Source of the DNA: a virus
Strand: one strand, 5' to 3'
IMG/VR virus record: IMGVR_UViG_3300028840_002880
Coordinates: 1-27,318 of that record
DNA: 27,318 nucleotides
The position numbers and the translations under genes were made by a program. The notes under the pieces were generated by a model. That model was not told where the DNA came from, did no database searches, and was given only the letters and a program-made list of their open reading frames with translations. Of this stretch, positions 3,302-16,725 are shown piece after piece (positions within the stretch are counted from its first letter, which is position 1; each line of letters opens with the position of its first letter).

Positions 3302-3458
3302 AACTCGCCCTTTCGCGCTTGAGACCCTTCCGAATCTGTTCCCGGAGCCAACGCGCATAGGGTACGCCCTTTTTCGCGCAATGGACCTTGACTGCCTTAT
3401 GCAGGGCCGGGTCTACGTCGATCGCGATCCGCGCGAGCCCCTTTTTCTGATTTTGCAT
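3291..3458 (-). CDS. Ribbon-helix-helix (Arc/MetJ-type) DNA-binding protein, 55 aa
   Basis: A short gene found by translating the gap between neighbours. After a basic N-terminus the sequence reads RIAIDVDPALHKAVKVHCAK, then KKGVPYARWLREQI: a strand, helix, turn, helix order typical of ribbon-helix-helix repressors, which bind operators as dimers through the N-terminal strand. The start ATG 3458 has GAGAGGGG six bases upstream and lies 3 bases after the preceding stop. It overlaps the next gene by 11 bases. It is the only RHH-type regulator candidate in the window. The repeated hairpins near 6.1 and 6.4 kb are possible targets, but that link is speculation. Confidence 0.7.
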   Translation of the reverse strand: MQNQKKGLARIAIDVDPALHKAVKVHCAKKGVPYARWLREQIRKGLKRERASYGS

Positions 3459-3461
3459 AAG

Positions 3462-3953
3462 CTACCCCTCTCCCTTGTCGTCGGTTTCCTGATAGTCCAC
3501 TCCCTCACAGTCGCGGAGGAGTTCCGCGGCGTTTTTCTTGTTGAGTTTCTCGGCGTCCTCGAAAGCGTCCCGGAGGACCTGGGTCAAGTTTTTGCGCGCG
3601 GCAACGACCGCGGCCTCCGCGTCCCGAATCTTGCCGAGGGCGTCCGAATCTATGACGCGGAAACGCGCGTTTTGTCCCTTGCAGTTAGCCTCCGTCGAGC
3701 GTCGGCCCTCGGAATCTGTCGCGAGAACTCCGAAACGGGCGAACCCTCCGCCGGATGGAACGTTGATCGAAACCGCGCCAGAATCCCGGACGTAGCGCCG
3801 AACGTGTTCCTCCGTCGGCCCGTCTAACCGGAGGCGCCCGTATTTCTGAGTCTCGACGTTCCGGACGAGATAAACGCGGACGATCGCGCGGCGCCCCTTG
3901 CCTCCGTCCAGGATCCGGACCCGTTGCCCGTCCTTGTGCAATAGTGCGCGCAT
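3462..3953 (-). CDS. Uncharacterised protein with C-terminal coiled-coil, 163 aa
   Basis: The N-terminal part is beta-rich and basic (RVRILDGGKGRRAIVRVYLV, about residues 10-30). The C-terminal part from about residue 105 is a long charged helix (RDAEAAVVAARKNLTQVL onward) ending in an acidic DDKGEG tail. I see no catalytic motif. ATG 3953 lies 2 bases after the stop of the upstream 50-aa gene; a GTG at 3956 overlapping that stop as TAGTG is equally possible. The longer frame to 4064 overlaps that gene and is rejected. Confidence 0.55.
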   Translation of the reverse strand: MRALLHKDGQRVRILDGGKGRRAIVRVYLVRNVETQKYGRLRLDGPTEEHVRRYVRDSGAVSINVPSGGGFARFGVLATDSEGRRSTEANCKGQNARFRVIDSDALGKIRDAEAAVVAARKNLTQVLRDAFEDAEKLNKKNAAELLRDCEGVDYQETDDKGEG

Positions 3954-3955
3954 CA

Positions 3956-4108
3956 CTAGATCGCCCTGCCCTTGGACTTGAGCCAGCACCGATAGCATTT
4001 CCGCGGGCGTCGCGTCTTGCGGGCGATCACGTTCCGCTTGATCGGACGCGCGCAATCCTCGCATTTGTGCGAGGGATCGCGATCGGTGTACTTGTACGGT
4101 TTCCGCAT
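3956..4108 (-). CDS. Small zinc-ribbon protein, 50 aa
   Basis: A short gene found by direct translation. It begins MRKPYKYTDRDPSHKCEDC and later has KCYRCWLKSKG, so two CxxC pairs (Cys16, Cys19 and near residues 39 and 42) are separated by a basic stretch RPIKRNVIARKTRR. It would fold as a single treble-clef or ribbon zinc site with strong positive charge, which suggests nucleic-acid binding. ATG 4108 follows GAAAGGGC by exactly 5 bases. Similar tiny Cys4 proteins are widespread in phages without assigned roles. Confidence 0.7.
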   Translation of the reverse strand: MRKPYKYTDRDPSHKCEDCARPIKRNVIARKTRRPRKCYRCWLKSKGRAI

Positions 4109-4243
4109 AGGTAGCCCTTTCATAATTGCGGTCCGTCGATCGTCGTCGCCTCGCCTGGGCCTCCGCGGCCCTTACCCTGCCCCACTAGCAGACGACTCGT
4201 GCAGGATTGGCCCGCGCCCTGTAGAGGGCGCGAGCCGTTCGGC
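4109..4243 (-). terminator. Intergenic leader with a terminator-like hairpin at 4210-4235
   Basis: On the minus strand GCTCGCGCCCT, loop CTAC, AGGGCGCGGGC forms an 11-bp stem with one U-G wobble that pairs only in minus-strand RNA. It lies 8 bases after the stop of the 4244-4837 gene. No U-tract follows, so it may be a weak or Rho-assisted terminator or an RNA stabiliser. Between the hairpin and the GAAAGGGC element at 4114-4121 I see GGGCC/GGCCC arms around 4160-4175 but no convincing promoter. Confidence 0.5.
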
Positions 4244-4837
4244 CTAGTAGCCTCCGCAAAATCTCCGTTCCGCGGCCTCCTCGGCCCTGATAGACGCCTC
4301 CGCGGCCAAACCGCCTGCCAGATGATGCTCGTAACGCTCGCGGAGGATCTCGGGGACCTTGGAGAGGTCAGGGACCGGGACGACCCGTTGACCGTTGCAT
4401 TCGTCGCAACGGATATCGTAGTCGCCGCGCCAGTATGCCTCCTCGAAATCCGGGTCCTCGGCGAACTCCTCGGAGGAAATCCCGTGCCCGTCTATCGCGG
4501 GATTGACCCGCGTCCCCTTCCCGCGGCAGGACTGGCAGACCTCGAAACGCGCGGGGACGATGTAGCGGAGTTCCCGCCCCTCGTCGTCGTCCCAGGTCAG
4601 GACGTGGAAGGGCTCGCCGATCGCGCGGAGCGCCGACTCGGCCTCCTGCTCGTCCTGGTTGCGGACGATCTCGGCGACCTTGTCGTCGTCGGAGAGTTCC
4701 GAGTCCGGGACCTCCTCGACCGAGAACCGATCGCCGGAGGGCTCGCGGAGGTTCATTGCCGCTACCTCGTCGGATGGGTCGTGCATGGATACCGGGCCGC
4801 GGTATCCGTCTCGACTGTCGATAATGATCCAAGCCAT
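4244..4837 (-). CDS. DnaJ-type zinc-finger protein, 197 aa
   Basis: The protein carries two CxxCxG motifs, CQSCRGKG (Cys101, Cys104) and CDECNGQ (Cys144, Cys147), separated by an acidic 40-residue insert. This matches half of the DnaJ cysteine-rich zinc domain. There is no J domain (no HPD), so a co-chaperone role is not implied; in phages such domains usually serve as small protein- or nucleic-acid-binding zinc folds. The N-terminal 80 residues are strongly acidic, the C-terminal helix is Ala/Glu-rich. ATG 4837 has a G-rich site (GGGGGG) 7 bases upstream and follows the preceding stop by 12 bases. Confidence 0.7.
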   Translation of the reverse strand: MAWIIIDSRDGYRGPVSMHDPSDEVAAMNLREPSGDRFSVEEVPDSELSDDDKVAEIVRNQDEQEAESALRAIGEPFHVLTWDDDEGRELRYIVPARFEVCQSCRGKGTRVNPAIDGHGISSEEFAEDPDFEEAYWRGDYDIRCDECNGQRVVPVPDLSKVPEILRERYEHHLAGGLAAEASIRAEEAAERRFCGGY

Positions 4838-4849
4838 TGATCTACCCCC

Positions 4850-5602
4850 CTATCCGTATACCAAACGGCCAAAGGTTGCGACCTGGACGACCGCGTCGGC
4901 GACCTCGGCGTCCACGTTTTCAATATCGCGCGCGGCGACGATGCCGACGAGTCGCGCGGGGAATTTGCCGGAGATGATGATCTCGTCTATCGCGTTGCGG
5001 ATCGCGGAGAAGCCGATCGTTGTCGCCTTGAACTCGGCGCGCGGATCCTCCTTGTCGCGCTCGATAATGATCGCTTCCACGGAGAGACCATCATCCGCGA
5101 GCGGATCGGTATGGGCGATATCCTCGCGCCGAATCGTCTCGATCTCCGCCCAGTAGTTAATGCCTCCCTCCGCCGCGGTCGTCATGAGGTCGCGGATCTG
5201 CTCGTCTGTCCAGATGGCGCCGACGGAATAGCGGGCCTGGGGCTCGCCAGTCTTGTCATCGATCAGCTCGACCTCGGGCTCCGGCTCGGGATAGGCATCC
5301 GCCCAATTGTCGAGGTCCTCGTCCAGGTCGAGGCGAACGATCGGCAGGCAACAGCCCTTGGGGTACTCGACGCGGACCGACCTATCGACCGCGATATAGT
5401 CGCGATCGTGATCGTCCGGAATGAACAGGACCCGAGAAGGATCCTTGTCCGGATCGTGATCGCAGGCCGCGGGATAGGTGTCGATATCTTCCCGAATGAT
5501 AACGCGATCGCCGATCCGGAGCGTCTCCCCGCTCCGAAGGCTAGCGGATTTCTTCTCCATTGCTCGCCGCAAGTTTAGGACGATTCTCTCGGCGCGGTTC
5601 AT
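4850..5602 (-). CDS. Conserved-type phage protein with a C-terminal FGELVYG-like end, 250 aa
   Basis: The N-terminal 100 residues look like a beta-barrel (LRIGDRVIIREDID and later VRVEYPKGCC). The C-terminal 120 residues contain a pattern I recall from other uncharacterised phage proteins: a helix followed by GINYWAEI, a middle section with IIIER and an ATTIGFSAIRNAIDEI helix, and the ending ADAVVQVATFGRLVYG. The biochemical role is unknown. ATG 5602 directly follows the upstream TAG, with GGAGG 8 bases before it. The long acidic linker (PEPEPEVELIDD) suggests two domains. Confidence 0.65.
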   Translation of the reverse strand: MNRAERIVLNLRRAMEKKSASLRSGETLRIGDRVIIREDIDTYPAACDHDPDKDPSRVLFIPDDHDRDYIAVDRSVRVEYPKGCCLPIVRLDLDEDLDNWADAYPEPEPEVELIDDKTGEPQARYSVGAIWTDEQIRDLMTTAAEGGINYWAEIETIRREDIAHTDPLADDGLSVEAIIIERDKEDPRAEFKATTIGFSAIRNAIDEIIISGKFPARLVGIVAARDIENVDAEVADAVVQVATFGRLVYG

Positions 5603-6103
5603 CTACAAATCCTCCGGCTTGTTGTTGCGGGCCTGGGTCGAGTAGGTAGCAATCGAGGACCAGGGGAAGAAATAGAAAACGCCCTTCTTTGTCGAAATCT
5701 CGATCCCTGGAGTCTCGTCGCCGAACCGATAGGAGTCGGTCGTTATGATGATATCGTCCCCACAGAATTCCCAGGGATCGGCGTCGCCCATAATCGTTAT
5801 CGTATGGACGAGGTAGGTCGCGCCTTCCTGCTTGGGTTCCTCGCGTTTGCCGCGGTTGGTGAAGCAGTCCACGAGGGAACCGTAGACCGCGCGCTCCACG
5901 TTCTTTTTCGCCTCCGCGAGATTCGGCTCGGACCAGGAGGTCGCATTTCCGTCCCGGTCCCAACAGCAGAGCCAACGATCATCCGCTGTAAACGGATCGG
6001 GGTTCTTGCGGACATTCGCGATTGTATGTCGCTTGTCCTCCAGTTGGACGGAGAGAACCCAGACCTCCCCGACCTTTTTCCAATCTGTCCCGTTACGTTT
6101 CAT
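5603..6103 (-). CDS. Uncharacterised phage protein, 166 aa
   Basis: The sequence has a basic N-terminus, Trp-rich beta segments (RWLCCWDRDG), a central helix and a C-terminal segment with aromatic strands (KKGVFYFFPWSSIATYS). I recognise no family. ATG 6103 lies exactly 5 bases after GAAAGGGC, which in turn lies directly behind the repeated hairpin at 6119-6143. The stop codon abuts the next start. Confidence 0.6.
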   Translation of the reverse strand: MKRNGTDWKKVGEVWVLSVQLEDKRHTIANVRKNPDPFTADDRWLCCWDRDGNATSWSEPNLAEAKKNVERAVYGSLVDCFTNRGKREEPKQEGATYLVHTITIMGDADPWEFCGDDIIITTDSYRFGDETPGIEISTKKGVFYFFPWSSIATYSTQARNNKPEDL

Positions 6104-6118
6104 GCAACGCCCTTTCAG

Positions 6119-6143
6119 TACAGACCGAGCCCGTTCCCGGTCT
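6119..6143 (-). promoter_or_regulatory. Leader hairpin, copy 1 of a 25-bp repeat
   Basis: The 25-base sequence at 6119-6143 recurs exactly at 6443-6467. It contains AGACCG and CGGTCT as inverted arms around a 10-base centre. Here the arms are 6 bp. The element ends 2 bases before the GAAAGGGC initiation element of the 5603-6103 gene, so it would form a stem-loop just ahead of the ribosome site. Confidence 0.6.
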
Positions 6144-6149
6144 AGGGTT

Positions 6150-6179
6150 GACCCGCGCCCCGGTTACGGAGCGCGGGCC
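6150..6179 (-). terminator. GC-rich hairpin after the 6189-6428 gene
   Basis: The minus strand reads GGCCCGCGC, a 12-base loop, then GCGCGGGTC, a 9-bp stem with one G-U pair. It starts 9 bases after the stop of the 6189-6428 gene. No U-tract follows, so termination would be weak or factor-dependent. It resembles the hairpin at 4210-4235 in position and composition. Confidence 0.5.
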
Positions 6180-6188
6180 GATTGATCT

Positions 6189-6428
6189 CTAACTCCGGGT
6201 GTACTTTGCGGTCGGCCAAAAAGCCTCGTCGTCGTACCGCTCAAGCCAACCGCGCGAGATCAATTCGCCGACGACCGCGCTAACCTCCTCGCGGGTCGCA
6301 TTTTCTTTAACCTGGACGCGGACCTCGTAGAGAAAACCGTCGATCGTGCAAGGCCCCATTGCCTGAGCGCGATCCATGATCGCCTCGCGCATCGTGTACG
6401 GCTTGCCCGCCGCGCTACCCTGTTTCAT
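6189..6428 (-). CDS. Small winged-helix-like protein, 79 aa
   Basis: The layout is helix (YTMREAIMDRAQAMG), a short strand-turn, a helix, then TREEVSAVVGELISRGWLER followed by a beta-hairpin ending AFWPTAKYT. That order is typical of small winged helix-turn-helix proteins in phage replication regions. The domain assignment rests on pattern only. ATG 6428 follows GAAAGGGC by 5 bases. The gene is transcribed from the promoter at 6474-6502 and its leader begins with a 10-bp inverted repeat, so it is the best candidate here for a specifically regulated gene. Confidence 0.55.
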   Translation of the reverse strand: MKQGSAAGKPYTMREAIMDRAQAMGPCTIDGFLYEVRVQVKENATREEVSAVVGELISRGWLERYDDEAFWPTAKYTRS

Positions 6429-6441
6429 TGCTTGCCCTTTC

Positions 6442-6502
6442 CTACAGACCGAGCCCGTTCCCGGTCTGTAGAAAGTATCGCCCGAACCTGGAAAGTTTGC
6501 AA
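6442..6502 (-). promoter_or_regulatory. Promoter with a perfect 10-bp inverted repeat at the start of its transcript (hairpin copy 2)
   Basis: Minus strand: TTGCAA at 6502-6497 as the -35 box, a 17-base spacer, GATACT at 6479-6474 as the -10 box (each 4/6). The perfect inverted repeat CTACAGACCG...CGGTCTGTAG (6471-6462 with 6451-6442, 10-base centre) begins 3 bases downstream. It therefore covers the expected start site. It contains the 25-base repeat also found at 6119-6143. It could be an operator or a hairpin at the very 5' end of the RNA. Confidence 0.6.
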
Positions 6503-6526
6503 TACTGAAGATTTGCCGAGATGGGG

Positions 6527-7207
6527 CTATTTTCGCCCGATCTTGCGGAGTTCGTAGACCGTTACCGGCAAAAGGGGCGCGCCATACTTGCGCGCCTCCC
6601 GGTCCGGGATGAACCGGAGGCAGTCTACCCTATGCCGCTTTGTGATCCTGTCCAGGGGGATCGCATACTCGCCGCGCTCGGTAAAACCAGGGACGCCGAC
6701 AACGTAACGATGCCCCCAAGTCCCGTCAGGATATAGGATCCTGTCGGTATGGACGCGGTCCCAACGTCGAGGAACCGCGACGACTTTCCAACCGGCGGAC
6801 TTGATCCATTCCAGGCGAGTCCAGTTTGTCGGATATGGACGCAAAGCGTCATAGTGCTTTCCGCCCTTCAGAAAATTCACATTCGCGAACGAGGTCGCGC
6901 GCTTGCCCGTGAAACGCGCGTCACTCGTCGGAGTGTAGCACGTTACAGGAATCCATTCGGTATGGACAGGGATCGGCACGAGTCGATAGGGAGGAGGTTT
7001 ATCCGCGGTCTGCTCCTCTATCTCGTCTCCCAGGTTTAAAGGTGCCTCCGCGGTCGCGGGCTGTTCGGCCTCCGATATGACAGATTTGGATTCGGGGAGG
7101 GCCGACCTCTGGACGGAGAACCAGAGGAACAAAACCGCGGCAACCGCGGAGGCGATAACGAGCAGAACGTCGGCGCGAGCCTCAGAACGGGATTGAAGTC
7201 GGTGCAT
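6527..7207 (-). CDS. Membrane-anchored 3D-domain protein, probable murein lytic transglycosylase-like enzyme, 226 aa
   Basis: A single hydrophobic segment (about residues 14-31, VLLVIASAVAAVLFLWF) follows a basic N-terminus and should anchor the protein with the rest outside the cytoplasm. An acidic linker follows. Residues 85-222 resemble the 3D (Asp-Asp-Asp) domain of MltA-type transglycosylases: IPVTCYTPTSD (Asp96), then LDRITKRHRVDCLRF (Asp186, Asp195), then REARKYGAPLLPVTVYEL. The three aspartates fall in the expected order. I infer cell-wall cleavage, perhaps as the endolysin, because no other wall hydrolase is visible. It lies 10 kb from the holin-like genes, which is unusual. It overlaps the upstream gene by 26 bases, and no clear ribosome site is seen. 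Confidence 0.55.
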   Translation of the reverse strand: MHRLQSRSEARADVLLVIASAVAAVLFLWFSVQRSALPESKSVISEAEQPATAEAPLNLGDEIEEQTADKPPPYRLVPIPVHTEWIPVTCYTPTSDARFTGKRATSFANVNFLKGGKHYDALRPYPTNWTRLEWIKSAGWKVVAVPRRWDRVHTDRILYPDGTWGHRYVVGVPGFTERGEYAIPLDRITKRHRVDCLRFIPDREARKYGAPLLPVTVYELRKIGRK

Positions 7208-7751
7208 TGCTTTTGCGACCTAACGCCGAGTTTTCGTATTCAATCAAGTCTTGGTCTTTGGGGTAGAGCGTTCTCGCCCGGACGAGCGCCTCCCAGGTCC
7301 CTATGTTTTGCCACCAGGGCGCCCGCGGTCTATGTCCGTTGCGCGCGTGACAAATGATCCAGGCGACAGGGGAGGGCATCCATTGCGGCGCCAAAACCTC
7401 GACGCGTCGCTCTACCTCGGCTTGTGTCGGATACTTTGCGCGCCATTGCACGAGGGGACCCTCGTCGGTATCGAGTTCGATCCGATCCCAGAGACCGCGC
7501 GCTACGTCCTCCCGTCTCATAGCATGAGGACAGGAACAAAGGGCCTCCCCCATTTCCAAAACCTTGCCCGCCCTGTAGACGATCGCTAGGATCCCCGTGC
7601 TCATGCAATCGAGACAATGGGCCTGGGCGCGCTCGTCCTTGTTCTCGGCGTTATGCTCTCCGCGCTTTATGAGTTTCGCCGCGGTTTTTGTGTCCAGGAG
7701 TTTGCAGAAAGCCTCCGTCAAATCGGAGGGATTGCGTTCGTTATCTCCCAT
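7182..7751 (-). CDS. Uncharacterised protein downstream of the replication initiator, 189 aa
   Basis: Two cysteine pairs (HCLDCMSTG near residues 45-50 and ALCSCPHA near residues 70-76) suggest a zinc site. A C-terminal helical part contains YPTQAEVERRVEVLAPQW. It has no Walker motif, so a DnaC-type ATPase is unlikely. Its place immediately after a DnaD/O-like gene suggests a replication role, but that is only context. ATG 7751 lies 5 bases after GAAAGGGC, and those bases lie inside the upstream 44-aa gene. Confidence 0.6.
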   Translation of the reverse strand: MGDNERNPSDLTEAFCKLLDTKTAAKLIKRGEHNAENKDERAQAHCLDCMSTGILAIVYRAGKVLEMGEALCSCPHAMRREDVARGLWDRIELDTDEGPLVQWRAKYPTQAEVERRVEVLAPQWMPSPVAWIICHARNGHRPRAPWWQNIGTWEALVRARTLYPKDQDLIEYENSALGRKSNAPTSIPF

Positions 7752-7875
7752 CGTTTGCCCTTTCTAGTTTCTTGAACTCAACAACCCAAACCCAGGGAAT
7801 GGCCGTTACCTCTCCGAACTCAGTAGGCTTGACCGCGTCTATTACGTCTTGCAGCTTTCCGTCAGAATCACCCAT
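7741..7875 (-). CDS. Small uncharacterised protein, 44 aa
   Basis: Found by direct translation. ATG 7875 has GAGAGGAGG 9 bases upstream and overlaps the stop of the replication gene by 8 bases. The product starts MGDSDGKLQDVIDAV and contains an aromatic strand IPWVWVVEFKKLE. The stop overlaps the next gene by 11 bases. The strong ribosome site and overlaps on both sides argue that it is real. No family is recognised. Confidence 0.55.
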   Translation of the reverse strand: MGDSDGKLQDVIDAVKPTEFGEVTAIPWVWVVEFKKLERANDGR

Positions 7876-8935
7876 TGCGCCGCGCCTCCTCTCTGAACCC
7901 GAGATAGTTCAAACAGATTTCCAGGCGTCTCGATTCGTTGAGACCAAGACTTTCAAGCCAGATCGCGAGCGCCCTTTTTGCCTCCTGCCGTCCGCGCCAG
8001 GGCGTCCGCGCTTTCCAGATCGCGAGATCCTTTCGGGCTTGATCTGGGAACGGTTCGCGTCGGATATGCTCGATCGTTACGCGGTTCGGGATAGACGACG
8101 TCGAGGCAGGGGGAACCCAGGACGGATCCGCGTACTCCTCCCAGGCGCCGGACGGTCCGAGGAACGTTACCGCTTGCTTGGTAAATCTGGGTTCTTCCCC
8201 CATCCGTTCCCTGGCGTAGTTGGACGCCGCGCGGACCAGTTGCTCCCTGGTCGCCCCGTTGCGGACGAGTCGGTCCCATTTCTGGAACGCGCCGCGCTTT
8301 GGATTGCCTCCCTCTCGTTTCGGATATGCCGCCCAGAACTCTTCAAAATCTACAGGGTAGGTATCACCAGACCCACCGCGTTTCTCGATCTTCCCGCGCG
8401 TCTTGCGGGCCTTGCCGTTGCTCTTGGAGTCTGGCGCCTGCTCTGTCTCGATCTGAGCGATCCCCTCGCGCGCGGGCGCGGGCGCGCGTCCGGATTCCGG
8501 ATTCCGGACTCCGGTTCCGGAGTTCCCAGACCCAAGATCCCAAGTTCCTACTGAGTCCGCTACTGAGTCCGATACTGAGTCCGATTTATCCGTTTTCGGA
8601 TCTATTACCGCAAAATCTAGGTCTTTTCTCGAAAGCAAACCCTGTAGCCAGGATGGGCAATGCTTCGGCCAATCATGGAGGACGATCCGATAGCGTTTTG
8701 ACTCGTCCGCCCAACCAGATTGCACCAGTGCAGCAACAAACTGCTCAGGGTCCCCCGTCCATTCGACCGCGGTCGCGAGGACCGAATCCGGCCATTTCCC
8801 GACGTCTCCCTGAGGAGCATAGTCACAAGCCCACGCCCAGAGTTCTTCAAGGATGCCGACCGCGTGAAGTCTTGGCACTCCAAGTAACGACGCGAGCGCG
8901 ATCGTTTTCGGATGCCGTGTTCCGCCCTTTTTCAA
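7868..8935 (-). CDS. Phage replication initiator / helicase-loader-like protein (DnaD/O type), 355 aa
   Basis: The N-terminal 110 residues form a winged-helix region (KTIALASLLGVPRLHAVG, later GKWPDSVLATAVEW and RIVLHDWPKHC). A low-complexity Ser/Asp/Gly linker follows. At about residues 190-290 the protein reads DFEEFWAAYPKREGG, KRGAFQKWDRLV, RFTKQAVTFLG and WEEYADP, the pattern typical of the C-terminal domain of phage O/DnaD-like replication proteins that bind DNA and recruit the helicase. The start is TTG 8935, supported by GGGGAGG 7 bases upstream. The open frame has no better ATG at the N-terminal domain boundary. Confidence 0.75.
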   Translation of the reverse strand: MKKGGTRHPKTIALASLLGVPRLHAVGILEELWAWACDYAPQGDVGKWPDSVLATAVEWTGDPEQFVAALVQSGWADESKRYRIVLHDWPKHCPSWLQGLLSRKDLDFAVIDPKTDKSDSVSDSVADSVGTWDLGSGNSGTGVRNPESGRAPAPAREGIAQIETEQAPDSKSNGKARKTRGKIEKRGGSGDTYPVDFEEFWAAYPKREGGNPKRGAFQKWDRLVRNGATREQLVRAASNYARERMGEEPRFTKQAVTFLGPSGAWEEYADPSWVPPASTSSIPNRVTIEHIRREPFPDQARKDLAIWKARTPWRGRQEAKRALAIWLESLGLNESRRLEICLNYLGFREEARRNG

Positions 8936-8953
8936 TCCGTTGCCTCCCCTTTG

Positions 8954-9253
8954 TTATCGCTTCGCGGTTATCCTGTTGGACCTCTGGATAGAGGCGCAAC
9001 GCGGACAATGAAACGTGAGAACGTCCGCCCCGTCGAAACCCTCCTCTATGTTTTCGACTCGGACCGTCTCCTCGGAAAACCATTCGACGCATTTCGAACA
9101 GTAAACCTTGATAACGGGCCGCGCAGATTTGAGAAACCTCGCCCAGGTGTATCGACAAACCAGACAGGTAAAACGATCGTGATCGATCTCCTCTATTGTC
9201 TCGATCATTTTCCCGCCGCATTTTGGACAGGGATGGATATCAGTCGGAGGCAT
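8954..9253 (-). CDS. Double zinc-ribbon protein, 99 aa
   Basis: Four CxxC pairs are visible: CPKC (Cys9, Cys12), CLVC (near 30-33), CSKC (near 51-54) and CPRC (near 82-85). They form two zinc ribbons in tandem, separated by a basic segment WARFLKSARPVIK. The C-terminus is basic (RSNRITAKR), which suggests nucleic-acid binding. ATG 9253 has AGGGG before it. It immediately precedes the replication gene and may be co-translated with it. No specific family is assigned. Confidence 0.7.
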   Translation of the reverse strand: MPPTDIHPCPKCGGKMIETIEEIDHDRFTCLVCRYTWARFLKSARPVIKVYCSKCVEWFSEETVRVENIEEGFDGADVLTFHCPRCASIQRSNRITAKR

Positions 9254-9984: not shown

Positions 9985-10807
9985 CACTCGCCCCCTTCCC
10001 TTCCGCGCCCGCGTCATCCATCATCGCCCACCCCACCACGCCACTATCCACCGGCACGGCAATTGCCAGACCATTCCGGTAGGCCTCGCGTATGCCGGTC
10101 GTCAGCGCCAGCGGATCACCACCGTCCACCCATCCCATCGACCTGGCGACATAGACGCATAGCGCGCCCCGTGCGGCCCGTGCGTCCCATGCGTCCCATG
10201 CGGCCCGTGCGTCCCATGCGTCCTGTGCGGCCCATGCGGCCCGTGCGTCCCGTGCGACCCATGCGTCCCGTGCGACCCATGCGTCCCATGCGTCCCATGC
10301 GTCCCGTGCGCTATCGTATCTGCGCAATTGCCAGGTTATGCCACGGGCATCCAGCGCCGACTGGAGCGCCGACGCCACTGCGTCGGCATCGTGCTGTGGC
10401 CTCGCCAGTGCCTCGCGCCATGCGATTTGTTCGTTGACCAGCCCGTCGATGATCGAATCCAGACCGCACCCGAGACACATTTCAGCCAGCGGCTCGCGCA
10501 GGTCCGTGATCTCCTCGATGATCTCCCATGTTGACGCGCGCATCTTGTCTCCGCGCTCCGTGATTTTGGCCCGCGTCTGCACGCGCCACAGCCGCGATGG
10601 CCAGCCATCTGGCCAGAGCCCGGCAATGCGCAGAGCGGTGGCAGCAGACCGGCACGCGTTCCAGCCTGCGCCGCACTCGGCGATGCCGCGATTCACGCGG
10701 ACGCGTGGCAGCCGATGGGGCAGGCTGCCGTCCCAGATGGGATCGCCTCCGCGCACGGGCGGTCGCAGGTCGTGTGTCGTCACCTTGTATGCCAATGTTT
10801 TAGCCAT
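9977..10807 (-). CDS. Phage accessory protein with internal (W/R)-(D/V/A)-A tripeptide repeats, 276 aa
   Basis: The N-terminal 75 residues ([16 protein letters not shown] to [14 protein letters not shown]) form a Trp- and Gly-rich beta domain like that of other uncharacterised phage proteins. The middle contains [16 protein letters not shown], which should be helical. Residues around 165-215 are a run of three-residue repeats of Trp or Arg, then Asp, Val or Ala, then Ala, encoded by the 9-bp repeat at 10163-10306. A normal C-terminal domain follows. Proteins with similar Ala-Trp-Asp repeats occur in other phages without a known role. ATG 10807 overlaps the upstream stop as TGATG and has GGAGGAG 6 bases upstream. 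Confidence 0.65.
10163..10306 (-). repeat. Tandem 9-bp repeat, about 16 units, inside a coding region
   Basis: Read on the plus strand the unit is TGCG(T/G/A)CCC(A/G). Fifteen near-perfect units run from 10172 to 10306, with one degenerate unit before them. Because the unit is 9 bp, all frames stay open and several false ORFs of MGR or MRP repeats appear. Variation is limited to two positions, which in the real frame exchange Trp/Arg and Asp/Val/Ala. Replication slippage would change the protein by whole tripeptides. Confidence 0.9.
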
Positions 10808-11058
10808 CACTCACTCCTCCCCTTCCGTGCCTTGTGCCCGCGAGGGCGGACAGCACACGACACACACGCGCACTCATCACTCCCAACAATTGCGTGTGCC
10901 AGCGCGGATGTCACAATGTGCTTACGATCACGCAATTCTTCTAGCGTGTCGCCAAACACCCACGCTATGCGTTCGGGCTCGGGGTTGTAGTACAGCACTT
11001 CGCCCATGTAGCCCTCGGCGGTCTTTCGGTCCTTGATGCCGGGAAGTACGCTAGGCAT
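10807..11058 (-). CDS. Uncharacterised small protein, 83 aa
   Basis: Starts MPSVLPGIKDRKTAEG at ATG 11058, which overlaps the upstream stop as TAATG. A GAGGGAAGAATA stretch precedes the start. The middle contains RIAWVFGDTLEELRDRKHIV, likely strand then helix, and the C-terminus has CACVSC and a basic end. No family is recognised. Both gene boundaries are stop-start overlaps typical of this block. Confidence 0.55.
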   Translation of the reverse strand: MPSVLPGIKDRKTAEGYMGEVLYYNPEPERIAWVFGDTLEELRDRKHIVTSALAHAIVGSDECACVSCAVRPRGHKARKGRSE

Positions 11059-11246
11059 TATTCTTCCCTCAACAATTCTTGCTCTCGCAGGAACGCGAGC
11101 AACGCATCGGATGGTGTATCTCCAAATGCACAGCAGGATTCCTGAATGTTCTCGAAATCATCCCACGCTGCCATGTAGGAATCCCCATCGGGACGAATGA
11201 TTATCTTCATCCCGTCATTCTCTATGAGCATAATGCCGACATTCAC
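11058..11246 (-). CDS. HicB-like small protein, 62 aa
   Basis: The sequence follows the HicB antitoxin-type fold: strand (MKIIIRPDGDSYMAAWDD), then FGDTPSDALLAFLREQ, the conserved G-D-T-P-x-x-A-L turn and helix. Many phages carry such stand-alone domains. No HicA-like toxin (small, with a catalytic His) is seen nearby, so a toxin-antitoxin pair is not supported. GTG 11246 overlaps the previous stop as GTGA and has GAGG about 8 bases upstream; ATG five codons later is an alternative. Confidence 0.6.
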   Translation of the reverse strand: MNVGIMLIENDGMKIIIRPDGDSYMAAWDDFENIQESCCAFGDTPSDALLAFLREQELLREE

Positions 11247-11602
11247 AGCAATTCCTCTTTCACCATCTTCACCGCATCGATCTTCGCCACGGCCCGCGTG
11301 GCGAGGCCCTGCTCACAGGCGTATCGCTGAATCTCGGCGCTAGATGAAACGATCCACCGCTCCTTGATGTCTGCCTCAATTGCGGCGTCTAACACTTGAT
11401 ACCCGTTTTCCTCTCGCGGAAATCCGCCGTAGGACATCGGGATTTTCCCGTCGCATACCAAGTGTGTGACGCCGCCATCACGGATCATTCTGATGGCCAT
11501 GTTGGCGTCTGGCGCGAACAGTGCGTCGATCCCTGCTTCTTCGCACTGCTCTTCGTACATCGCCAGAATGCTCTCGTCGTCGTCCACAAACAGCGTTGTC
11601 AT
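11243..11602 (-). CDS. Stand-alone response-regulator receiver domain (CheY-like), 119 aa
   Basis: The full receiver signature is present: acidic pocket VDDDE (Asp7-Asp9), phospho-acceptor Asp51 in LVCDGKIP, the conserved Ser in IVSSSAE (Ser86-88), and Lys107 in VAKID. The length equals one receiver domain, with no output domain. In bacteria such proteins accept phosphate from histidine kinases and signal through protein contacts. In a phage it could tap or buffer a host two-component pathway, which is inference. A gap of about 175 bases holding a tRNA-like element separates it from the upstream gene. It overlaps the HicB-like gene by GTGA. Confidence 0.75.
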   Translation of the reverse strand: MTTLFVDDDESILAMYEEQCEEAGIDALFAPDANMAIRMIRDGGVTHLVCDGKIPMSYGGFPREENGYQVLDAAIEADIKERWIVSSSAEIQRYACEQGLATRAVAKIDAVKMVKEELL

Positions 11603-11778
11603 GGTATTCTCCCCAAATCAAAGTTACCTGATTTCGCCGACACTAGTAGGCGAGGTGGGACTCGAACCCACATGTAACCAATTACGGTTTCTACACCTTA
11701 TAAGAGTGAGCCGATACTCGCCTAAAATCTAAAATACATTGCCTTGCTAGGACCCGCCGCCGCGTCGTTTTTGTGTCA
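11603..11778 (-). other. Intergenic region with the tRNA-like element; nothing else clear
   Basis: Outside the tRNA-like element at 11648-11723 the stretch holds a 10-codon open frame at 11749-11780, whose ATG overlaps the upstream stop as TGATG. That might be a gene remnant. I see no convincing promoter or terminator. The sequence is noticeably more AT-rich than its surroundings. Confidence 0.4.
11648..11723 (-). tRNA. tRNA-like element, perfect acceptor and T arms, no normal D arm
   Basis: On the minus strand AGGCGAG (11723-11717) pairs fully with CTCGCCT (11654-11648). GTGGG-TTCGAGT-CCCAC (11671-11655) is a canonical T arm next to it. Total length is 76. The middle does not fold normally: CACT-CTTATAA-GGTG could be an anticodon arm with anticodon UAU (Ile, codon AUA), but that leaves only 7 bases for the D arm and 22 bases (with an AACC/GGTT hairpin) as variable arm. 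CCA is not encoded. It may be a divergent tRNA, a decayed tRNA, or a mimic. An attP segment matching a tRNA 3' end is a further possibility. Confidence 0.5.
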
Positions 11779-12189
11779 TCACTCACTCCCTCCCAGTGCC
11801 CGCCGCGCAATGTCCCCGTAGTAGGTGTTGCCGGGTAGTTTTTCGATCTCGGTCAACGCGGCCCGCAGCCGCGTGTGCTCTTCGTCGAGTTCCCCGACCG
11901 ATTCGTCCAGGAGTTCATACGCCGCCCGCAGCCGATCGATCTCGGATTCATACCGGCACCGCGCGCACGGATCGTCCACCGGGCAATGGCTGCCGCTCCA
12001 ATCGGCCAGCCCCACACCCGCCTGTCGGCAGTCAAGGCCGCGCATAATGTCCTCCAGCGTTCTGACCCGATCGCGTTCCCGCTCCACTTCCTCGGCGGCG
12101 TCAACCAAAGCGTTGAACATATCCCACGGCACCATAATCACCCCGTTTGGACGGCGCATCCGTTGGAGTTGTTCGCGCTCAAGATTCAT
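11779..12189 (-). CDS. Coiled-coil protein, paralogous in its C-terminus to the 9718-9984 gene, 136 aa
   Basis: ATG 12189 (MNLEREQLQRM) follows GGAAGGGGGCGAG. The first third has a conserved-looking VIMVPWDMFNALVDAAEEVE. A Cys-rich centre (HCPVDDPCARCRYE) and a coiled-coil (EIDRLRAAYELLDE) follow. It ends LTEIEKLPGNTYYGDIARRA, nearly identical to the end of the 9718-9984 product. Phage proteins with this kind of end exist but have no known function. The longer open frame to 12300 lies inside the upstream gene. Confidence 0.6.
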   Translation of the reverse strand: MNLEREQLQRMRRPNGVIMVPWDMFNALVDAAEEVERERDRVRTLEDIMRGLDCRQAGVGLADWSGSHCPVDDPCARCRYESEIDRLRAAYELLDESVGELDEEHTRLRAALTEIEKLPGNTYYGDIARRALGGSE

Positions 12190-12484
12190 CCTCGCCCCCT
12201 TCCGCGTTGTCCAGAGGCGTCTCCGGCGCTTTCTCGATCTTCTGGAGGCGGTACTCCTCCAGGATCGTAGCGAGGTCCTTCCCCTCCGTCTCGGAGACAT
12301 ACCGGCAGACCGTGAGGGTCGCCGGTTTCATTGCCTCGACCTCCAGGCAAATCGATATAACACGCAGTCCGCCGAGCCCCAGGGCATCCAGGAGAGGTAC
12401 AACGGACTCCCCGGCTCCGAACAAAATGGGCGCCCTATCTGGCTCCGTAAAATCGGCGGATGGGCTCCCCGGTTCCTCTACCAT
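12179..12484 (-). CDS. Uncharacterised phage protein, 101 aa
   Basis: The core is a helix LLDALGLGGLRVISICLEVE followed by a strand region (PATLTVCRYV) and a helix (LATILEEYRLQK), ending in an acidic tail. I recall similar small proteins in other phage nonstructural regions but know no function. ATG 12484 overlaps the upstream stop as TAATG. It overlaps the next gene by 11 bases. Confidence 0.6.
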   Translation of the reverse strand: MVEEPGSPSADFTEPDRAPILFGAGESVVPLLDALGLGGLRVISICLEVEAMKPATLTVCRYVSETEGKDLATILEEYRLQKIEKAPETPLDNAEGGEDES

Positions 12485-12882
12485 TAGAAACGCGCCTCCT
12501 CTAGGATCTGCTCGTCTACCGGAATTTCGTTACAGACCCATTTTTTAGCTTTCGCGCCGCGTTTGATCGGCGCTTTCCGCCAACCATGCACCTCGATACG
12601 TCCGCCGGATCTCAACCATTCCAGGGCCTCCGGTATCTCCGCGAGTTTGTGAACCCTCGCGCGGGCGTTGCTCGCGCTCGTCGTCTGGACAAGCAGGATA
12701 CCGATTCCAGGTTGACAGGCGATCAAATCGCAACCCCAGAGGTCTCGGCGGACGCCCTGCTTTGTCGGCCTGGATACCCCGTCCTCTCCATCCCTCCAGT
12801 AGGGTTGCCAATACTCGACCTTTGCTACCGTCCATCCGCGGGACCTTAACAGTTCGGTCGATCTGGACGTCGGCGAACTCAT
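12484..12882 (-). CDS. PD-(D/E)XK-like nuclease (resolvase/VRR-type candidate), 132 aa
   Basis: A short helix with Glu10 (RSTELLRSRG) and strand AKVEYWQPYW lead to RRDLWGCDLIACQ (Asp47, Asp52) and then ILLVQTTSASNARARVHKL. This has the order of a PD-(D/E)XK core, with Gln66 in place of the acidic residue and Thr at the usual Lys position, as in some phage nuclease families with a VQxT motif. A later GWRK motif is also typical. I infer a nuclease or resolvase of DNA branches, with activity uncertain because of the substitutions. ATG 12882 overlaps the upstream stop as ATGA; a TTG at 12903 is less likely. Confidence 0.55.
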   Translation of the reverse strand: MSSPTSRSTELLRSRGWTVAKVEYWQPYWRDGEDGVSRPTKQGVRRDLWGCDLIACQPGIGILLVQTTSASNARARVHKLAEIPEALEWLRSGGRIEVHGWRKAPIKRGAKAKKWVCNEIPVDEQILEEARF

Positions 12883-13181
12883 GGCAACGGAGCATCCATG
12901 CAACCGAGGGCGCGCGTCCTGGTGAAACTACAAACAACGTCCCTTCTGCCCAGGTCGATCGCGGCCTCTACCGCGCGATCCGTCCGGACGATAGCCTTCT
13001 CGTTCTCTCTCTCGACGCGGGCCTCTTTCTCCGGATCGAGGCGTCTGTCTCTATGGCGCTTTTTCATAGCGGCATCCTTGGCGAGATTGGCCTCCCTAAT
13101 TGCATCCCGGAGCGCCTCTTTCCGTCGCCTCGCATCCGCCCGCCTATGGACTCTTCGAACGCTCTTGCTATTGCGCCCCAT
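12879..13181 (-). CDS. Basic helical protein, 100 aa
   Basis: The protein is extremely rich in Arg, Lys, Glu and Ala (for example RRVHRRADARRRKEALRDAI) and looks like one long helix up to about residue 75, after which VVCSFTRTRALGCMD forms a different end. It could bind nucleic acid. ATG 13181 follows the upstream TAA by one base. Without a motif the function is open. Confidence 0.5.
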   Translation of the reverse strand: MGRNSKSVRRVHRRADARRRKEALRDAIREANLAKDAAMKKRHRDRRLDPEKEARVERENEKAIVRTDRAVEAAIDLGRRDVVCSFTRTRALGCMDAPLP

Positions 13182-13182
13182 T

Positions 13183-13476
13183 TTAGAAGAGAGTCCTCTG
13201 TACGGGCTCGGATGGACGTATCATCCAGACGATAGCAGACCGTCCGGCCCTGGTCTTTCGCTTCCTCCCCGAGTCCATAATCTCCTCTCCCTGTTGGAGT
13301 TCCTTGCGCCTGGGGCATTCCGTTTGCGGACTCATGCCGAGGGCGTCCTGGATCTCCTGGTCCGTAGCCCCGTTGTCGCCGCGGTCGCGGATAAACGCGC
13401 GGACCTGGGCGCGCAGACTAGGCGCCGCCGGACGAATTCGTCTATGTGCTTCCCTGCTTGTATGTGTCGTCTCCAT
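13183..13476 (-). CDS. Winged helix-turn-helix regulator-like protein, 97 aa
   Basis: Residues 20-90 follow a familiar phage winged-helix pattern: a helix (LRAQVRAFIRDRG), GATDQEIQDALGMSPQT as helix-turn-helix, PRRKELQQGEEIMDSG as third helix, and the wing KRKTRAGRSAIVWM. It probably controls transcription or serves replication. The gene has its own structured leader (13498-13563), and GAAAGGGC lies 4 bases before ATG 13476. Confidence 0.7.
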   Translation of the reverse strand: METTHTSREAHRRIRPAAPSLRAQVRAFIRDRGDNGATDQEIQDALGMSPQTECPRRKELQQGEEIMDSGRKRKTRAGRSAIVWMIRPSEPVQRTLF

Positions 13477-13480
13477 CGTT

Positions 13481-13574
13481 GCCCTTTCCGAAAGTGAGGG
13501 ACCGCGACGAGGCGCGAGCCGCTGAAAGGTCGGAAGGTGATAACCTAACCTCGCCGCGGTCCCGGTTGGGGTTC
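13481..13574 (-). promoter_or_regulatory. Structured leader: 15-bp inverted repeat at 13498-13512 / 13549-13563
   Basis: GGGACCGCGACGAGG at 13498-13512 is complementary to 13549-13563 with one mismatch. The 36-base loop contains a smaller AGGT-GATA-ACCT hairpin. It lies directly before the initiation element of the winged-helix gene. It has no U-tract, so it is more likely a leader fold, an operator, or a Rho-type site than an intrinsic terminator. Confidence 0.6.
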
Positions 13575-13700
13575 CTACCCTCGTTCCCCGTCGTCTCCGT
13601 TCCTGTCGGCGCCCAGGGGCTTAACCGGCGCCCTGGTCACGCGGACGCCGCGGACCTCGACCGCCTGGAGCGGTTCGATATCCATAGCGGCAATCTTGTA
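13575..13700 (-). other. Minus-1-frame continuation of the 13637-13852 gene (41 codons)
   Basis: If the reading frame moves by -1 at the TTTT run (13700-13703), translation goes on as YKIAAMDIEPLQAVEVRGV and ends at a stop at 13575. This stretch looks coding (balanced residues, strand pattern), whereas the zero frame over the same DNA is NRSRRSRSAASA. The joined protein would be 92 aa. Confidence 0.6.
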
Positions 13701-13852
13701 AAACCGGCCCGGAACTGCGTCTCTCTCAACGCGGCATCCGCCGACTTCCTGGTATCGAAAACGGGACCAAACGGGAGGAGAGAAACCTCCCCCGTCTCGT
13801 CCTGTTGGACCTCCAGGATCCTATACTCCAGATGTTGCTTTCTCCGTCCCAT
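13637..13852 (-). CDS. Small phage protein with apparent -1 frameshift (zero-frame ORF 71 aa; joined product 92 aa)
   Basis: The gene starts MGRRKQHLEYRILEV at ATG 13852, 9 bases after AGGAGGG. Up to residue 51 (FDTRKSADAALRETQFRAGF) it looks like a genuine small beta-alpha protein. After GGT TTT the zero frame becomes a low-complexity Arg/Ser tail, while the -1 frame continues convincingly to 13575. Either one T is missing here (mutation or assembly error), or the ribosome slips at TTTT. No classic X-XXY-YYZ heptamer is present, so a missing base is the simpler reading. No function is known. Confidence 0.6.
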   Translation of the reverse strand: MGRRKQHLEYRILEVQQDETGEVSLLPFGPVFDTRKSADAALRETQFRAGFTRLPLWISNRSRRSRSAASA

Positions 13853-13866
13853 CCGTTACGTCCCTC

Positions 13867-14115
13867 CTATGAAACTCCCGGACCCTCCGGAAGTGTTTCC
13901 CAATAGCATTTGAGGAATTGTCCGCCTAGCGTTGGTTCCTCCTTGTCGTTTACCGTCACGATCCAGGCGACGGATTTCCCGCAATGGCATAGGATCCGAT
14001 TCCTACGACCAAGGTTCCGGCCCGCGTTTACCTTTAGGATCCTCCGGCATTTTGGACAATGGACCTCTGCCCAATATCGCCAGAGGATCGGATCTAGTTG
14101 CAACGCGCAAACCAT
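13867..14115 (-). CDS. Zinc-ribbon protein, 82 aa
   Basis: A CPKC pair (Cys20, Cys23) and CHC near residues 43-45 make a zinc ribbon around a basic loop (RRILKVNAGRNLGRRNR), followed by strand SVAWIVTVND. It is probably a nucleic-acid-binding accessory protein. ATG 14115 has GGAGGG 13 bases upstream, a long spacing. In the -1 frame of the upstream gene a stop overlaps it exactly as TAATG, which suggests translational coupling. Confidence 0.6.
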   Translation of the reverse strand: MVCALQLDPILWRYWAEVHCPKCRRILKVNAGRNLGRRNRILCHCGKSVAWIVTVNDKEEPTLGGQFLKCYWETLPEGPGVS

Positions 14116-14407
14116 TACGGATTATTGACCCTCCAAAAAAAACCGTAGGCCCGAAATCGTAGACCCCGCGCTCGGGCCATTGCGCGGGCTCCCCGTGATA
14201 ACGTTCTCCCGCCCGGACCGCGGCGCGCAGAACTCGGCATTTGAACACGTGCCTAGAACCATGATAAACACGCCCGCCGACTACCGTCGGACCCGAGTCC
14301 AGACTGAAAGCCTCTATCCGTTCCTCTCCGGTCCAAGACCAACATTTCCGGACAGAGACCAGGGCGCCGCAATCAGGGCAAGACCTACGCTTACCCCTCG
14401 GGCGCAT
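14003..14407 (-). CDS. Cys-containing protein with a T8 run near its end; zero frame 134 aa, -1 frame 97 aa
   Basis: ATG 14407 follows GGAGGGG by 7 bases, and the start overlaps the nuclease gene by 17 bases. The N-terminus has CPDC (near residues 10-13) and further Cys at about 22 and 58, compatible with zinc. The zero frame overlaps the next gene by 113 bases with a weak-looking tail. At gtT-TTT-TTT (14135-14142) a -1 shift would instead end after six codons at TAA overlapping the next ATG as TAATG, the junction style used elsewhere here. The true C-terminus is therefore uncertain. Confidence 0.55.
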   Translation of the reverse strand: MRPRGKRRSCPDCGALVSVRKCWSWTGEERIEAFSLDSGPTVVGGRVYHGSRHVFKCRVLRAAVRAGERYHGEPAQWPERGVYDFGPTVFFGGSIIRNGLRVATRSDPLAILGRGPLSKMPEDPKGKRGPEPWS

Positions 14408-15344
14408 TGTCAAGCCCCTCCAGGACCTCGATTTTCTTCCGCCATGATCCGCGCTTGTCCTGGGTCCCCTTGATCAAAAAACGACCGATAGCGAGTTGAG
14501 TTTCTCCCCGTTCAAAACGGGCCTTTACCGCGTCGCGGATCGCGGCGTCGAAACCCTGATAGTCGCGGGCCGAGGTCTGGAGTTTGTCCCGTTCTTCCAG
14601 GGCTTCCTCTAATTCCGGATCGTCCATCCATACCAGGGCCTCGGCTTGTGTGAGATCCGGAACGCATATTCCGCGATACTCGCAACGTCCGCAAATCTCA
14701 CGAGACCAGGGCAACCGATCCGGAAGGGTTCCCTTATCAACGTGTCGATTGATCCGGGACGCTTTCTGTAGTAGCCCTTCACAGTAGTCAAGGTCAAGGT
14801 CGATCCAGATCTCCCGAAAGAGCCCGGACGTTTTGTTAATGAACAGGATAAGTCCCCGCTGTTCCTCGGTGTCGGCTTTCATTACTAGATATAGTTGGAT
14901 CTGCGCGGGGTATCGCCGAACGTGCGCGGACTTGTGATTGTAGAGATCCGCCGCGCTTTCGATCGTGCCGAAAATGTACGGTGAACAGGATTTGACGTCC
15001 ATAACGTGCAGGACGTCGCCGAAATCCTCGTGCCCGATCATGGCGTCGATATGACCCGTTATCCGTTCTTCCGGAAATTCAAGCGCGGTTTGCTGCTCGA
15101 AAATTCGATATCCCAGATCCTCCAGTTTCCGGATTGCATGGCGCTCGAAAAGATCGCCGAGCCCGAAAATCGCCTGTAGTTCCGGGGATGGGGGTTCGGC
15201 GTCTTTCCAACGCGTCCGCATATAGACGAGTTTCCGCTCGCAAGGATCGCCCAGGGCGCTCGCGCGGTTCGTATGGCAGGGATAGACCCTGGCATCGTCC
15301 CGGAGGGCCTGGAGTTGTCTCTCCTCGATCGACAGAGGCGCCAC
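14391..15344 (-). CDS. Cas4/AddB-like PD-(D/E)XK nuclease with 4-Cys Fe-S cluster, 317 aa
   Basis: The nuclease core shows GHIDAMIG (Asp100), VMDVKS (Asp116, Lys118) and QIQLY (Gln148). Four cysteines placed as in Cas4 and AddB, Cys35 (DPCERK) and Cys218, Cys221, Cys227 (CGRCEYRGIC), should hold an Fe-S cluster. Such enzymes resect DNA ends and in phages pair with annealing proteins, as the neighbouring gene here suggests. I start at GTG 15344, which shares its G with the upstream TAG; the longer frame to 15536 is a Pro/Arg/Gly shadow of the annealing protein. No CRISPR array or cas1 is seen, so a recombination role is favoured. Confidence 0.8.
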   Translation of the reverse strand: MAPLSIEERQLQALRDDARVYPCHTNRASALGDPCERKLVYMRTRWKDAEPPSPELQAIFGLGDLFERHAIRKLEDLGYRIFEQQTALEFPEERITGHIDAMIGHEDFGDVLHVMDVKSCSPYIFGTIESAADLYNHKSAHVRRYPAQIQLYLVMKADTEEQRGLILFINKTSGLFREIWIDLDLDYCEGLLQKASRINRHVDKGTLPDRLPWSREICGRCEYRGICVPDLTQAEALVWMDDPELEEALEERDKLQTSARDYQGFDAAIRDAVKARFERGETQLAIGRFLIKGTQDKRGSWRKKIEVLEGLDNAPEG

Positions 15345-16294
15345 TAGAACAGGTCCCCAGGCGCGGGCGCGTCGGTGTCGCCCTGGTCGTCGGCGTCTCC
15401 CTGGTCGAGGGGGAAATCCCCCGGCTTGTGCTTCTTGAACCAATCCACGATAGCGTCGTAGTGGGCGACAGGGATATGCCGGTCCGATTTGTAGCCGAAC
15501 CCCTGGATTGCCTCGCGGTATGCCTCGACCGTCCAACCGGCCTCTTTGGTCGCGATTGCGAACAACCTGCGCCCCTGGCCCTCAGAAATCGCCCCAGAGG
15601 CCCCGGAATCGTGAGGGGACTCCTTGGGCGCCGAGTTGTTTCCGCGACGTCCTGGGCCGGATTTGGCCCCCTGGCCTCCCGATTTGGCCCCCTGGTCCCG
15701 TTTCTCGCCGCCTCCCTTGAAATCGAACGCGCCCCCCTTGATCTCGATCCCATGCCGCTCCAGATCCTCGACCGAGAGGCGCCGGATCCCGAGGATCCTC
15801 TGGCAAGCGTTCCGATAGAGGTCGGAAATCGCGTCTTGTTTGACGTCACAAGGATTAATTTCGGAGAGGGGACGCTCGTAGGTCTCCCCGTCCTTGTCCT
15901 TGCGGTTGAGATAGATCGACTTCCTGGACGAGGCAGTCCCGACGACGTCCAGCCAGGGCGCTTGTCCGCGGATGCTCGCCCGCCCGAATGCCGTATAGGT
16001 GAAGAACTTTCCGCGCTCGTCCTCCCCATCCTCGCGAACGACCTGGGGCTCCCCGCGATCGTCGCGAATGAACTCGACGCAGATACCAAAAACCGGCATG
16101 ATCCGCTCGGCGCCAGAATCCCGGAGCCAGGGCTCACCCTGGATCAATGTCCAGTCTTGGGGCTTGGTGCGCTTGCAAACGATCGCGGCGACCTTGTTCA
16201 GTACCTCGATACGCCTCTCCACAAACTCCGCCAGATCCAGACGCTCCAAAGCGTCCAGGGCGTCCGGCTCCCTCGTCTCGATCTCGTTCCCCAT
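15344..16294 (-). CDS. Putative single-strand annealing / recombination protein, 316 aa
   Basis: Residues 1-165 resemble a phage family found beside Cas4-like nucleases: a long N-terminal helix, PQDWTLIQGEPWLRDSGAER, a beta section, and VKQDAISDLYRNACQRILGI. A basic Gly/Lys/Ser linker with repeated QGAKSG follows. The C-terminal helical domain (EGQGRRLFAIATKEAGW) resembles one attached to several phage DNA-binding proteins. The end PAPGDLF is acidic with a final Phe, like the tip of SSB proteins. I infer DNA annealing together with the next gene's exonuclease. ATG 16294 lies 5 bases after GAAAGGGC; the GTG at 16309 overlaps the previous stop. Confidence 0.6.
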   Translation of the reverse strand: MGNEIETREPDALDALERLDLAEFVERRIEVLNKVAAIVCKRTKPQDWTLIQGEPWLRDSGAERIMPVFGICVEFIRDDRGEPQVVREDGEDERGKFFTYTAFGRASIRGQAPWLDVVGTASSRKSIYLNRKDKDGETYERPLSEINPCDVKQDAISDLYRNACQRILGIRRLSVEDLERHGIEIKGGAFDFKGGGEKRDQGAKSGGQGAKSGPGRRGNNSAPKESPHDSGASGAISEGQGRRLFAIATKEAGWTVEAYREAIQGFGYKSDRHIPVAHYDAIVDWFKKHKPGDFPLDQGDADDQGDTDAPAPGDLF

Positions 16295-16305
16295 CCTATG
16301 CCCTT

Positions 16306-16725
16306 TCACTTAGTGGCCCAGGCGATCCACGCGACCGCCACAAAAAGGAGACAGTTCAAAACTTGTTGGGAAGCCGCGCCCAATCGGACGCGCGCCTCGA
16401 TCCCTCCAAAATGAATCGCAAGATGCAAAGATCGACCGGCGTCCGGCGATAAGATCTTGAGACGTACAAGGATCAAACCGATATCCACTAGGACCGCGGC
16501 GATCGCGGCGCCAATCGCGTACCAGTGACCAGTAGAACCCAGGACCGAAAGAACAGACAAGAGCCAGAGCCCTTCCCATCCGATTTCTGCCTTTCGGTCC
16601 TGGTAGCAATGCTCTCCGATCAGATCCGCAGCGTAGTGGCTCGCGACGCCCAGGGCGATCCCCCAGGGTCCTCCAATCGTGAATGATACGAGCGCCCCGA
16701 TCGGCGCGTGACTCGCCGGGAACAT
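16306..16725 (-). CDS. Polytopic membrane protein with conserved His residues, about 139 aa
   Basis: About three or four hydrophobic segments are seen (PIGALVSFTIGGPWGIALG, WEGLWLLSVLSVLG, IGAAIAAVLVDIGLILV and NCLLFVAVAWIAW). The first part has FPASHAPIG and ASHYAADLIGEH, with conserved-looking His and Asp, reminiscent of YdjM-type membrane hydrolases, though the resemblance is weak. I take ATG 16725 (MFPASH), preceded by GGGGGTGA; an in-frame ATG at 16737 is possible. The start lies only 12 bases after a terminator-like hairpin, so expression may be controlled by read-through. Confidence 0.55.
   Translation of the reverse strand: MFPASHAPIGALVSFTIGGPWGIALGVASHYAADLIGEHCYQDRKAEIGWEGLWLLSVLSVLGSTGHWYAIGAAIAAVLVDIGLILVRLKILSPDAGRSLHLAIHFGGIEARVRLGAASQQVLNCLLFVAVAWIAWATK

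Follow-up and report, generated by a model that had tools for sequence, protein, structure and literature searches.

An eight-base element, GAAAGGGC, stands before seven non-structural genes of an uncultured tailed phage known from the IMG/VR virus record IMGVR_UViG_3300028840_002880 (27,318 bases; the whole stretch is referred to as the window). Judging by its position, identity, spacing and pairing potential, we infer that it works like the start-associated sequences (SAS) of actinobacteriophages, that is, that it is probably a translation element under a constraint going beyond Shine-Dalgarno (SD) pairing. The original prediction had placed seven copies between positions 3307 and 16307 of the minus strand, which carries all the clear genes of the window, at a fixed distance before start codons. 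All seven coordinates proved correct, each copy precedes the ATG of an open frame, and the spacing is indeed fixed, at 5 nt for six starts and 4 nt for the one at 13476. The copies, with their surroundings and the upstream open reading frames (ORFs), are as follows:

16300-16307, minus strand: GAAAGGGC, 5 nt before the ATG at 16294; starts just past the TAA stop codon of the upstream ORF 16306-16737.
13481-13488, minus strand: GAAAGGGC, 4 nt upstream of the ATG at 13476; the intergenic gap measures 160 nt.
7757-7764, minus strand: GAAAGGGC, 5 nt before the ATG at 7751; in the 3′-terminal codons of ORF 7741-7875, an upstream frame that overlaps the gene; read there as Glu-Arg-Ala.
6434-6441, minus strand: GAAAGGGC, 5 nt upstream of the ATG at 6428; the gap measures 98 nt, and an inverted repeat immediately precedes the element.
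6109-6116, minus strand: GAAAGGGC, 5 nt upstream of the ATG at 6103; the gap measures 85 nt, and 2 nt separate the element from a copy of that inverted repeat upstream.
4114-4121, minus strand: GAAAGGGC, 5 nt upstream of the ATG at 4108; the gap measures 135 nt.
3307-3314, minus strand: GAAAGGGC, 5 nt before the ATG at 3301; in the 3′-terminal codons of ORF 3291-3458, an upstream frame that overlaps the gene; again read as Glu-Arg-Ala.

Counted over both strands, the window holds nine copies of GAAAGGGC, seven on the coding strand and two on the plus strand, against 1.44 expected; a total of nine was reached in none of 100 shuffles. The plus-strand copies (16757-16764 and 24902-24909) lie away from starts and are about the number expected by chance. 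When all 8-mers preceding ATGs with an open frame were ranked de novo, GAAAGGGC came first, with every sense copy at a start, and the runner-up scored 4. A further count took, for any one 8-mer, its copies ahead of ATGs at two adjacent spacings (n and n+1): the real minus strand gives 7, and 300 dinucleotide shuffles usually gave 2, otherwise 3 or, three times and as a maximum, 4. Taken together, the shuffles and the de novo ranking therefore rule out a chance origin. Conservation ends exactly at the edges of the 8-mer, the flanking columns being near background, and the exceptions outside it are the start codon itself and a mild preference for A/T 2 nt after the start codon.

The element would in part be an ordinary SD, shifted towards the end of the 16S rRNA, if the host has a tail of the ...CCUCCUUUCU type. 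The first seven bases, GAAAGGG, can form seven consecutive pairs with the 16S tail GAUCACCUCCUUUCU, the last of them G-U, at a computed -8.4 kcal/mol compared with -9.2 kcal/mol for AGGAGG; with the Escherichia coli tail GAUCACCUCCUUA the element makes five pairs (-4.4 kcal/mol). The commonest 16S tail in a survey is GATCACCTCCTTT (14,088 of 20,495; PMC6107228), and a 16S end in ...UUUCU has been measured in Bacillus subtilis and Listeria monocytogenes (PMC6107228, PMC6288834). These figures raise the alternative that GAAAGGGC is a plain SD and nothing else, GAAAGG(G) being a good shifted SD for a host with a CCUUUC tail and the copies being identical because options are limited or because they were copied from one another. 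Seven of the eight bases can pair, at a strength near that of AGGAGG, and the position resembles that of the shifted SDs of the AAGGA or AAGGAG type, dominant in some bacteria (PMC6107228), which likewise pair with the 3′ part of the 16S tail at the right distance from the start. We nevertheless find this alternative doubtful. Position 7 is always G, which can form only a wobble pair with U where A would pair better, and position 8 is always C, which is unpaired; plain SDs differ among genes and vary within their complementarity to 16S rRNA, whereas here all eight letters are fixed in seven copies, the wobble and the unpaired base included. The sense strand has 15 copies of GAAAGG: GC follows in exactly those seven that stand at starts, and none of the eight lacking GC lies at such a distance from a gene start (Fisher p = 0.00016, in a post-hoc test). 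About 40 other genes of the window have varied SDs, many of them AGGAGG-like, and in the control stretches (lambda, D3, L009, L013, L017 and L020) the top start-associated 8-mer has only 2-3 copies. The earlier claim that the motif is more than a normal SD is thus upheld for the fixed, variant-free G7 and C8, and loses force for bases 1-7; since these can pair with the commonest tail, the claim depends chiefly on GC being invariant and on there being no variants.

The closest known kind of element is the SAS of Cluster K mycobacteriophages and Cluster EF Microbacterium phages. The Cluster K SAS is a 13-bp sequence, GGGATAGGAGCCC, present in 11-19 copies per genome 3-7 bp from non-structural starts; it prefers large gaps, is conserved beyond its 16S complementarity and is accompanied in about half of the cases by upstream 17-bp inverted repeats, the extended SAS (ESAS) (PMC3203893). 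Cluster EF Microbacterium phages, such as AnnaSerena, carry ten copies of GGGAAAGGACCCC with an ESAS of their own (PMC7302621). SAS have been known since 2011 in a few actinobacteriophage clusters (PMC3203893, PMC7302621), and their role was still called unknown or unverified in reports of 2024 and 2025 (PMC11373665, PMC12699233). The traits of the class recur here: the element is start-proximal and in a single orientation, combines an SD with extra conservation, and belongs to non-structural genes and to gaps over 50 bp. With the Cluster K SAS of TM4, Anaya and Adephagia (PMC3203893, PMC11373665, PMC12699233) it has in common its asymmetry and single orientation, non-structural genes with mostly ATG starts, a preference for large gaps and conservation beyond the SD; an upstream inverted repeat, found in a subset of the Cluster K sites, is present here at two sites, perhaps through one duplication. 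Unlike GAAAGGGC, however, the Cluster K sequence contains AGGAG, occurs in more copies, is conserved across many relatives and is more loosely spaced; run on a stretch of Anaya, the script recovered the SAS with TAGGAGCC as best 8-mer, of whose 13 copies 5 share one pair of spacings, versus 7 of 7 here. GAAAGGGC does not fit the strict Cluster K consensus at up to 2 mismatches, and its flanks are not conserved. The Cluster EF SAS is likewise a conserved repeat, placed where the ribosome binds in a subset of genes; it has the GAAAGG core in common with GAAAGGGC and pairs by computation with the same region of the 16S tail, and an upstream extended element has been described for it. It differs in being 13 bp long and present ten times (here 8 bp, seven times), in having an ESAS at all sites (here an inverted repeat at two) and in the bases on either side of GAAAGG, so that its strict consensus does not match either. 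No similarity between the phages themselves is shown, AnnaSerena and this phage not having been compared directly. GAAAGGGC would accordingly be a new instance of the SAS kind that belongs, by strict consensus, to neither cluster.

We propose that GAAAGGGC, standing at the ribosome-binding position of the seven genes at a fixed distance from the AUG, would pair through bases 1-7 with the extreme 3′ end of the 16S rRNA (CCUUUC of the ...CCUCCUUUCU tail), as a shifted SD of near-canonical strength. The invariance of G7-C8 and the lack of variants suggest that the tag may also be read by something beyond rRNA pairing, in which case the seven genes would form a translational class, probably expressed early in infection. 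Within this SAS-like reading, a dedicated trans-acting factor is possible, and we suggest it tentatively. A more far-reaching proposal, that GAAAGGGC is a phage-specific tag through which a trans-acting factor switches the seven genes on or off together, appears unlikely. The reader could possibly be a phage RNA-binding protein, a modified ribosome or an RNA containing the complement GCCCUUUC, one such complement lying within 16745-16780. The first of these had been offered in the original prediction; it is possible and unsupported, with no positive evidence here and no candidate RNA-binding regulator that could be named from the window sequence. The segment 16745-16780 is itself the strongest inverted repeat of the window, located between the tail and non-structural blocks, 8 nt ahead of the ATG at 16737; its upper part, taken on the sense strand, contains GCCCTTTC, which is exactly complementary to the start element, and the terminator-like GTTTTGT comes next. 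The complement could be there by chance, plus-strand copies being at their expected number.

Two further contrasts drawn in the original prediction hold only in part. The element does appear to avoid structural genes, since none of 17 carries it, but just 7 of about 32 non-structural genes do (p = 0.04, for a gene list made by hand from the ORFs of a fragment without head genes), and the restriction is thus statistically weak. Tail genes were said to use AGGAGG-like sites instead; many non-structural starts, for example those at 13852, 12484, 9253 and 7875, have AGGAGG- or GGAGG-like sites as well, so the contrast is not simply one of non-structural versus tail genes. Gaps of at least 50 nt precede 4 of the 7 element-bearing genes versus 4 of the 42 others (p = 0.009), the four gaps measuring 85-160 nt. 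The genes starting at 7751, 3301 and 16294 may be translationally coupled to their upstream ORFs.

An upstream inverted repeat accompanies the element at two of the seven sites, those of the genes starting at 6428 and 6103:

6439-6474, minus strand: ESAS-like inverted repeat TTTCTACAGACCG-N10-CGGTCTGTAGGAA, which immediately precedes the element at 6434-6441 and runs into it.
6122-6143, minus strand: the inverted repeat again (AGACCGGGAACGGGCTCGGTCT), preceding the element at 6109-6116.

At these two genes the repeat would add a further layer, probably as a DNA-level operator or promoter or as an mRNA hairpin, as proposed for ESAS. The copies are near-identical, perhaps through one duplication: a 24-nt core, GACCGGGAACGGGCTCGGTCTGTA, which holds the inverted repeat, is identical at 6443-6466 and 6119-6142. 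Recent duplication of one 5′ leader could in principle have spread the element too, and the identical 24-nt repeat plus element at this pair is what it would predict. The other five sites have no common flanks, the columns beyond the 8-mer are near background, and duplication therefore covers at most the 6428/6103 pair; as an account of all seven sites it is most improbable.

The repeats also bear on whether GAAAGGGC acts at the level of DNA or of the transcript, as a promoter piece, transcription start, RNA processing site or protein operator. Their position directly upstream at two sites would fit this, as would the four sites in 85-160 nt gaps with strong hairpins and the SigA-like promoters contained in the Adephagia ESAS (PMC11373665). 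The position of the element, however, is tied to the ATG and not to the gap, and a promoter role is unlikely at three sites, because two lie inside the end of an upstream ORF and one abuts a stop codon. The sole sigma-70-like promoter found in positions 1-17600 (2478-2506) coincides with no element. We consider such a role very unlikely. Masking of the elements by mRNA hairpins as a class-wide device was ruled out, because the mean unpaired probability in predicted folding is higher at the elements (0.53) than at other gene starts (0.40) and complementary upstream tracts occur at only three element sites. As a separate observation, the words GGGCGCNGGYYAANCC are common to hairpins at 4204-4219, 6145-6160 and 13618-13633 (minus strand), which sit just past the stop codons of three genes, each lying upstream of an element-bearing gene.

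Relatives were sought among viral contigs with five proteins of the window, two alignments and a DNA pattern, and among genome contigs with two alignments; the two scans of genome contigs gave no matches. The only close match among viral contigs, IMGVR_UViG_3300017971_001033, is 100% identical to window positions 11135-26294 (15,160 bp). It covers and confirms two elements; being identical, it is the same phage and uninformative on conservation. More distant relatives share single proteins: the N-terminus of the tape measure protein (L012, 52% identical), the exonuclease (L013, 36%) and a homologue of the 13183-13476 protein (L020, 44%). No comparable start-associated 8-mer was found in these three contigs, in L009, another distant relative, or in phage MW202801. 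A single GAAAGGGC-N5-ATG in L013 (13170-13185) was dismissed because its frame spans only about 10 codons.

Several points weigh against the SAS-like interpretation. Seven sites are few, many other non-structural genes manage without the element, and the inverted repeat is present at only two sites whose pair looks like the product of one duplication. Bases 1-7 can all pair with the commonest bacterial type of 16S tail, and the pairing was computed on assumed tails. No trans factor has been identified, and the element occurs in no independent relative among the distant, partial relatives compared. If the interpretation is correct, a shorter and strictly spaced SAS-type tag, in a phage whose tested region matched none of 50,697 phage records at the nucleotide level, suggests that such tags are spread more widely and perhaps arose repeatedly. 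The division into pairing and non-pairing bases (G7, C8) would also offer a simple mutational handle on whether the tag has a reader other than rRNA.

The genes that carry the element, and the layout in which they lie, are as follows:

About 25-17 kb, minus strand: tail block, with tape measure (21606-23015), tail terminator, tail completion and tail assembly chaperone genes.
Below 16.7 kb, minus strand: non-structural block.
15344-16294, minus strand: element-bearing gene, 316 aa; its product matches hypothetical proteins of phages MW202801 and HP1 at 27-30% identity.
14391-15410, minus strand: Cas4-type exonuclease gene.
13183-13476, minus strand: element-bearing gene, 97 aa; PHROG 1123 (function unknown), with relatives in Pelagibacter, Erythrobacter and Mesorhizobium phages.
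7868-8935, minus strand: replication initiator gene.
7182-7751, minus strand: element-bearing gene, 189 aa, no match.
6189-6428, minus strand: element-bearing gene, 79 aa, no match.
5603-6103, minus strand: element-bearing gene, 166 aa, no match.
3956-4108, minus strand: element-bearing gene, 50 aa, no match.
3029-3301, minus strand: element-bearing gene, 90 aa, no match.
281-832, minus strand: HNH nuclease gene.

The 316-aa protein is possibly a single-stranded DNA-annealing recombinase, a guess made because its gene adjoins that of the Cas4-type exonuclease; the protein has no family match, and neither structure nor family supports a recombinase. Assignment of a host was attempted and given up, because the best protein matches point in different directions, being scattered over phages of Vibrio/Alteromonas, Microcystis, Roseobacter and Pelagibacter.

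Elsewhere in the window, a tRNA at 11647-11723 (minus strand), in a 176-nt gap, scores 32.7 bits with Rfam and is not called by ARAGORN. A 53-bp repeat, 87% identical between 9729-9780 and about 11787-11838, encodes the C-termini (EIERLPGNTYCGDIARRA and EIEKLPGNTYYGDIARRA) of two paralogous ORFs, and ORF 9977-10810 (minus strand) contains a low-complexity run of WDAWDAW and VARDAW repeats.

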